Positions 4,290-23,750 of a stretch of DNA of 38,415 bases are shown here, piece by piece. The position numbers and the translations under genes are program-made. The DNA comes from Cytophagales bacterium (lineage in GTDB: Bacteria > Bacteroidota > Bacteroidia > Cytophagales > Thermoflexibacteraceae). Positions within the stretch are counted from its first letter, which is position 1. Every line of letters begins with the position of its first letter. The DNA is taken from positions 1 through 38,415 of the forward strand of contig CANGYA010000015.1 in assembly GCA_947457925.1 (NCBI GenBank), given 5' to 3'. The notes below the pieces were generated by a model. That model saw nothing but the letters and a program-made list of their open reading frames with translations, searched no databases and was not told the origin of the DNA.

Positions 4290-4315
4290 TAGGCATTTAA
4301 GCAATTAAGTGCCTA
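4290..4315 (+). terminator. Rho-independent terminator after the CBS gene
   Basis: Stem of 11 pairs (TAGGCATTTAA / TTAAGTGCCTA, one G-U) around a GCAA tetraloop, followed by TTTTATTT. Confidence 0.65.
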
Positions 4316-4378
4316 TTTTATTTCACAAAAAATTATTACGTTTGCAAAAAGTGTTTTCTTAGAGAAAAAAACGTGAAT

Positions 4379-4409
4379 TTTGGAAAAAAAGAAATTGCTA
4401 TTACATTTG
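4379..4409 (+). promoter_or_regulatory. rnc promoter (TTTG-N19-TACATTTG)
   Basis: TTTG at 4379-4382, a spacer of exactly 19 bases, then TACATTTG at 4402-4409. This is a full match to the Bacteroidota housekeeping promoter. Transcription would begin near 4413-4417, leaving a leader of roughly 25 bases before the proposed ATT start at 4440. It supports a start in this interval rather than further upstream. Confidence 0.68.
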
Positions 4410-4439
4410 TAAACCTTTTCACTTTTAAATCCTTCAGGT

Positions 4440-5186
4440 ATTATTAACTTTTTATCATCTTTTTTACGGCTTTTTCGAGTAGAAACTACCGAAGACAAAG
4501 AACTGCGTACAGCCATTCGTAACATTACAGGCTATACCCCCAGCAACTTAGACCTTTTCAAATTAGCCTTAATACATAATTCTGTAGCCAAAGAAGTAAA
4601 CGGAGGCTTCAAAGTATCTAATGAAAGGTTGGAGTATTTGGGAGATGCTGTATTGGGAATGGTCGTGGCGGAGTATCTGTTCAAAAGATTTCCTTACAAA
4701 AACGAAGGTTTCTTAACCGAAATCCGTTCTCGTCTTGTAAGTAGAGAGTCTATGGACAAACTTTGTAAGAAAGTAAAATTAAATGACTTGGTAGAATATG
4801 ACTCCAAAAACCGCAATATGTCTTCTTTCCGCTATATTTACGGCGATGCAATGGAGGCTTTTATTGGTGCGGTATATATGGACGTAGGTTTTAAGAAATG
4901 CCAACAGTTTATTATCGACAAACTTTTGCACACACACATAGACTTGGAAACAGTCATAGAAACAGATACCAATTACAAGTCTAAATTGATAGAATGGTCG
5001 CAGAAGAATAATAAGTTTGTTCGGTTCGAAACTTTGGAGGAAAAAGGCTCTGCCCACCAAAAACAGTTTAAGGTACAAGTATTGATAGACGACGAGATAG
5101 TTTCCAAAGGAGCAGGTTTTAGCAAAAAAACTGCCGAACAAGACGCAGCCCGCAGAGCTTGCGAGTTGTTGGAGATACAACAGTGA
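4440..5186 (+). CDS. rnc: ribonuclease III, apparent ATT start
   Basis: RNase III cleaves double-stranded RNA in rRNA maturation and mRNA turnover. The catalytic domain carries the signature ERLEYLGDAVLG and a downstream acidic site around FRYIYGDAMEAFIGA. A C-terminal double-stranded-RNA-binding domain runs from about NYKSKLIEWSQK to the end, with the conserved KKTAEQDAARRA helix. The frame is open from the stop at 4410-4412, yet it has no ATG, GTG or TTG before codon 64 (TTG 4629), which lies inside the catalytic signature. The residues between are typical of the family N-terminus (FLRLFR...ELRTAIRNITGYTP...LALIHNS). The start is therefore placed at ATT 4440 (or 4443), giving 248 residues, the usual size. 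A strong promoter lies just upstream. A lost ATG or an unseen frameshift is the alternative. The usual neighbour fabF is absent. Confidence 0.85.
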   Translation: MINFLSSFLRLFRVETTEDKELRTAIRNITGYTPSNLDLFKLALIHNSVAKEVNGGFKVSNERLEYLGDAVLGMVVAEYLFKRFPYKNEGFLTEIRSRLVSRESMDKLCKKVKLNDLVEYDSKNRNMSSFRYIYGDAMEAFIGAVYMDVGFKKCQQFIIDKLLHTHIDLETVIETDTNYKSKLIEWSQKNNKFVRFETLEEKGSAHQKQFKVQVLIDDEIVSKGAGFSKKTAEQDAARRACELLEIQQ

Positions 5187-22799: not shown

Positions 22800-23738
22800 T
22801 TATTTCATATCATTCATGCGTGTTTCCAAATTATCAGAATACGTATTAATTTCTAAGTAACGTGAAGACATTTTTGCTTTCATGTATTGCTTAATAGCAT
22901 ATCCAAAAGACTTTGCAGCATATAGAAATTTACCAGACATCAACAAACTAAAAGCCCGTACCAAAGTGGGAGCTATTTCAGCCACCCTCGATGGGTGTAC
23001 TAAATGCTCATTTTCATAAAGTTCTCTGGGTCTGTATGTTTGTGGCAGCATTGGTGCTAATATGTTATCGGTATCATACACCAAGATATTCACACCGTCC
23101 CACCAGCCTTCAAGAGCCGTATCTTTTCTATCTTCGGGCATATTATTGGGGTGCGTATAAGTGTACGTTTCGTAAAGTAACTTGAACTCAGGGTGTGCCA
23201 CCAAAAAATCTCTGTTGGCTTGCCGTACATGGCGATAATTCGAATCATCTACAATAATAACGGCATTAGGAGCTAAAAACGGTTTGATAAGCAACAAACA
23301 CATCATTTGGCTGCGGTAGTCGTGAGGTCCGTCTATAAAATAAACTGCCACTTTTTTGTTCCCTATATGCTTAGAGAGGTTTTCTAAAATATCTTCATAG
23401 TCATCATTCAGGAGTTGTACTTGTGTAAGTCCCAATGCTTGTATTCTGTCTTGTACGATACCATAATTTTTTTTATCCTTATCAAAGTATGCAAAATTAT
23501 CTATACCACAACACAATAATTCATTTTCTGTACTTGCTGCCACAGAAAGCAGCGTAAGCCCCTGAAAAACACCTACTTCCAGATAACAAACCTCTTTATT
23601 GCCCTTATAAAGGTTACTAAATCTCTATAAGGCATTCATCATTTTTTTGCCCGAAAAGCCTGTTAAAATAGGCGAAGAAAACAATAAAGGGCTTCCTTGC
23701 TCTATAGACTTTATAATTTCTTTGTACTTTTCAATCAT
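22800..23738 (-). pseudogene. class I SAM methyltransferase interrupted by an in-frame TAG
   Basis: The natural frame starts at ATG 23738 (MIEKYKEIIKSIEQGSPLLF) and would give 312 residues, but codon 38 is TAG (23625-23627). The frame continues without shift (RFSNLYKGNKEVCYLEVGVF, then QGLTLLSVAAST). The stop comes just before the SAM-binding motif LEVGVFQG. The rest is typical of the Methyltransf_24 group: KVAVYFIDGPHDYRSQM (post-II), AVIIVDDSNYRHVR and EGWWDGVNILVYD. A restart at GTG 23543 would lose motif I and is unlikely to give an active enzyme. A single base change (CAG or AAG to TAG), a sequencing error, or readthrough would explain it. It lies 12 bases after pyrB in the same operon, so it was co-transcribed. 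The substrate is unknown. Confidence 0.8.
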
Positions 23739-23750
23739 GTTAGTAATCAA

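Follow-up and report, generated by a model that had tools for sequence, protein, structure and literature searches.

To our knowledge, very few bacterial genes carry conserved near-cognate start codons. RNase III, the product of rnc, is autoregulated by cleavage of its own mRNA, in the 5' UTR in Escherichia coli, in the coding region in Staphylococcus aureus, and also in Streptomyces. This autoregulation is thought to avert harmful over-accumulation of the enzyme (PMC3386247), which in E. coli accounts for about 0.01% of protein (PMC5371410). Of the near-cognate starts that have been described, the AUU of E. coli infC, like the one proposed here for rnc of a Cytophagales bacterium, lies on a housekeeping gene and is kept in relatives; its own product, IF3, discriminates against AUU and thereby provides feedback, whereas the AUU proposed here belongs to the RNase III gene, in a genome whose infC has an ATG start. 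Closest in function is E. coli pcnB, likewise the gene of an RNA-decay enzyme with an AUU start, although it is another gene in another phylum; its translation is limited by the inefficient AUU, according to a paper citing Binns and Masters (2002). In S. aureus, expression of cvfC1 (AUU), ccpN (AUA) and infC (AUA) is lowered by conserved non-canonical starts (PMC13009471). The rnc start would resemble these in its conservation, but the S. aureus genes rely on extended Shine-Dalgarno motifs, and Bacteroidota ribosomes are described as not recognising Shine-Dalgarno sequences (PMC9976891), so that this help should be absent here.

From sequence comparison, we consider it probable that rnc in this genome is translated from a near-cognate AUU, which would limit RNase III. 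Such a start would be of an already known kind (infC, pcnB, ccpN), with rnc apparently a new carrier: a limited literature search found no paper naming rnc among near-cognate-start genes or describing an AUU start for rnc.

The rnc reading frame and its 5' end

The window, that is, the whole stretch of 38,415 nucleotides that was analysed, contains rnc on the + strand. An open reading frame check placed its stop-to-stop frame at 4413-5186 (257 codons), bounded upstream by an in-frame TAA (4410-4412, +). The first ATG, GTG or TTG in this frame is a TTG (4629-4631, +) situated 63 codons past an ATT at 4440, and the codons between the two encode the conserved N-terminus of RNase III. This TTG falls within the ERLEYLGDAVLG signature and is implausible as a start, as it would drop 63 residues conserved in relatives. 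The preliminary description had given the same TAA, TTG and in-frame ATT codons (4440 and 4443), had placed the TTG within the RNase III signature and had recognised a normal N-terminus ahead of it, and we verified each of these points. Read from ATT 4440, rnc (4440-5186, +) encodes 248 residues followed by a stop. The product matched the RNase III equivalog TIGR02191 at 204.1 bits, above the curated cut-off of 166.25, over profile positions 4-218 of 219, and its Pfam matches (PF14622, PF00636 and PF00035) cover the RNase III and dsrm domains.

Two tandem ATT codons are candidates for initiation, at 4440-4442 and 4443-4445 (both +). Comparison of the source genome (G000) with a genome of the same genus (G001) revealed no residues in common over codons -8 to -1 and five over codons 1 to 10; few codons are compared, and similarity sets in at ATT 4440. 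The same column holds the TTG start of five family members. The start column reads ATT-ATT-AAC in G000, ATT-ATC-AAT in G001 and ATC-ATC-AAA in G005, with ATC at the position of the second ATT in the latter two, and rnc of G001 contains no standard start before residue 23, where a TTG occurs. Initiation in Bacteroidota is favoured by A at -12/-13, -6 and -3 (PMC6847099); ATT 4440 has AAA at -13 to -11, and ATT 4443 has A at -3. These comparisons favour AUU 4440 as the likely start of rnc translation, with AUU 4443 possible and less likely. An ATT initiation codon had already been suggested in the preliminary description, and the suggestion is well supported by the onset of same-genus similarity at 4440 and by relatives that have no standard start at the same place.

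The route by which that description had arrived at ATT fared less well. It had noted a well-formed promoter and concluded that the leader must be short. The candidate Bacteroidota-type promoter, TTTG-N19-TACATTTG (4379-4409, +), is indeed an exact match, but 2.4 such matches per window are expected by chance against 3 found; by its pattern a promoter here is plausible and no better than chance. The short-leader argument is thus weak, and the homology argument takes its place. The segment 4415-4480 folds no better than shuffled sequences; that the leader is short depends on this candidate promoter. Upstream of rnc lies a cysteine synthase gene with CBS domains, followed by a terminator-like hairpin (4290-4315, +) of 11 pairs and a T-rich tail (fold z = -4.7). 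Elsewhere the neighbour is usually fabF, found just upstream of rnc in 98 of the 110 loci read, a linkage lost in G000 and G001. Visual inspection also showed hairpins with T-rich stretches behind them between fabF and rnc in several fabF-linked family members (L007, L010, L012 and L018). These hairpins could terminate fabF and so uncouple rnc from it, or could be sites for RNase III.

Start codons of rnc in the family and the class

The 5' end of rnc was read in all 13 genomes of the family sample. In seven of them (G000, G001, G002, G003, G005, G006 and G011), the sequence between the upstream in-frame stop and residue 20 or further contains no standard start. An eighth, G009, is ambiguous: its only standard codon is a TTG at residue 11, which might be its rnc start. 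In the other five, which belong to the genera g4 and g7, TTG occupies the column of ATT 4440, and an ATG start was found in 0 of 13. Five of the family's seven genera show the lack of a standard start, which appeared nowhere else in the sample. Together with the missing ATG, GTG or TTG at the conserved N-terminus of the source genome, the same lack in these relatives argues for a start at a near-cognate codon.

Which near-cognate codon is present varies. The start-less genomes offer AUU, AUC or a conserved CUG at the rnc N-terminus: the three g6 species have a CTG in common at one position, which for G011 is the only good near-cognate candidate, while G003 offers ATC or ATT and G002 offers ATC, CTG or ACG. 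Of the conservation of ATT in relatives, for which the preliminary description had proposed an alignment, it is therefore the lack of a standard start that is conserved; AUU itself recurs only in the genome of the same genus and possibly in two more. On the RNase III tree the label "no standard start" needs two changes, and start-less rnc may have had a single origin in the family.

Outside the family, a standard start was present in the rnc N-terminal window of 97/97 sampled genomes of the order and of 46/46 from other orders of the class. Within the order (n=97), candidates were GTG only in 38, TTG only in 20, both in 11, ATG only in 18 and ATG among several in 10; in the other orders, ATG was absent from the window in 34 of 46 genomes by a hand count. 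Across the class Bacteroidia, rnc starts are mostly GTG or TTG and not ATG. The near-cognate starts of the family thus seem to be an extreme form of the weak rnc start (GUG/UUG) seen across the class.

Initiation elsewhere in the genome and alternative readings

Generally relaxed initiation in this genome was considered and rejected. A genome-wide control covering about 440 kb of G000 yielded 217 coding-like ORFs; the start-less lead of rnc, at 72 codons, is the longest among them and itself scores as coding. The frr gene starts with ATG in 30/30 genomes, 12 of them family members, and infC does so in 11 of 12, the source genome included; the initiator tRNA has a normal anticodon stem. With frr, infC and the other ORFs standard and the initiator tRNA normal, the oddity does not reflect initiation at large. 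The exception for infC is G005, where no ATG, GTG or TTG precedes the IF3 domain and the start is probably ATT; as its 11 relatives have ATG, this appears to be an independent gain of an infC-type start. A second start-less candidate in the window, at 22803-23627 on the minus strand, was discarded, because there an in-frame TAG interrupts a methyltransferase-like frame and no near-cognate start is involved. At this locus (22803-23749, minus) the interruption is TAG 23625-23627, with an ATG-started front part just upstream in the same frame; either a nonsense codon has broken the gene or the sequence is in error.

The alternative that survives best, though we regard it as unlikely, is that the rnc start is regulated, with IF3 level or growth state acting through start-codon discrimination as in E. 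coli infC. E. coli IF3 discriminates against AUU (PMC9410913), and every family genome encodes an IF3, which looks ordinary. However, infC starts with ATG here, which leaves no linked feedback on IF3 of the E. coli type, and the type of rnc codon varies among relatives. The S. aureus data point both ways on growth state, one AUA start being medium-responsive while an AUU start showed no medium effect (PMC13009471). In the genera g1 and g6, IF3 is extended at its N-terminus by about 30 to 40 residues rich in Asn, Pro and Gly; g4 and g7 lack this extension. When the preliminary description suggested that RNase III may be limited at initiation, for example through IF3, the limitation itself was a reasonable inference, in line with the weak rnc starts of the class; the IF3 route remains unsupported.

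Very unlikely, in our judgement, is coupling to a small upstream frame of 24 codons (4373-4447, +), which begins with GTG and whose TAA (4445-4447) overlaps the ATT pair, so that termination there could feed re-initiation. The candidate promoter falls inside this frame, and no overlapping upstream frame at the rnc start is kept in the near-cognate genomes compared, G000 alone having one; the frame is probably a chance occurrence. Less credible still is a shorter RNase III made from an internal standard codon (TTG 4629 here, 185 residues): the 185-residue form still scores above the NCBIfam cut-off and the TTG at residue 23 of G001 could yield an E. coli-like N-terminus, but here the whole conserved first part (ITGYTPSNLDLFKLALIHNS...) would be lost, though it is kept in all relatives. 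Least probable of all is that the gene has decayed or that sequencing or assembly went wrong, since, even though G000 is a draft genome of 329 contigs, seven separate family genomes (eight with G009) show the same lack, and rnc is the sole copy found in the genome, with frame and domains intact.

Proposed control of RNase III dosage

In the reading that we prefer, translation of rnc from AUU, the normal initiator tRNA would read AUU 4440 with one mismatch and deliver fMet. Initiation at AUU, AUC or CUG is expected to be poor, with an output at or below about one tenth of that from AUG where it was measured in other bacteria. In S. aureus reporters, non-canonical starts gave ~10% of AUG output, one AUA start reaching as much as 30% in rich medium (PMC13009471); for a CUG start in E. 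coli, a figure of 0.86% is cited in PMC11497404. A predicted unstructured leader should aid initiation, while in a phylum whose ribosomes do without Shine-Dalgarno pairing nothing obvious would offset the weak start. Poor near-cognate initiation with no obvious compensation would thus hold RNase III low and limited at translation.

ATG is one base change away from ATT, ATC or CTG and yet is found in the rnc of no family member, from which we infer selection for weak initiation rather than mere tolerance of it. We see an even chance that AUU, AUC and CUG swap under such selection, the weak start being a conserved regulator of RNase III dosage throughout the family.

Autoregulation by cleavage keeps the same enzyme low, as proposed here. 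Elsewhere, however, it operates by cutting the mRNA, whereas the leader predicted here is short and unstructured; the weak start may for this reason do here what autoregulation by cleavage does in E. coli and S. aureus, needing no RNase III site in the leader.

Gene callers restricted to ATG, GTG and TTG would give a truncated RNase III in such genomes (185 residues here) and hide the true start. If our reading is correct, the family would offer a natural test of how ribosomes choose among AUU, AUC and CUG without Shine-Dalgarno recognition, and it would suggest that a limit on RNase III set at initiation can substitute for self-cleavage by the enzyme.
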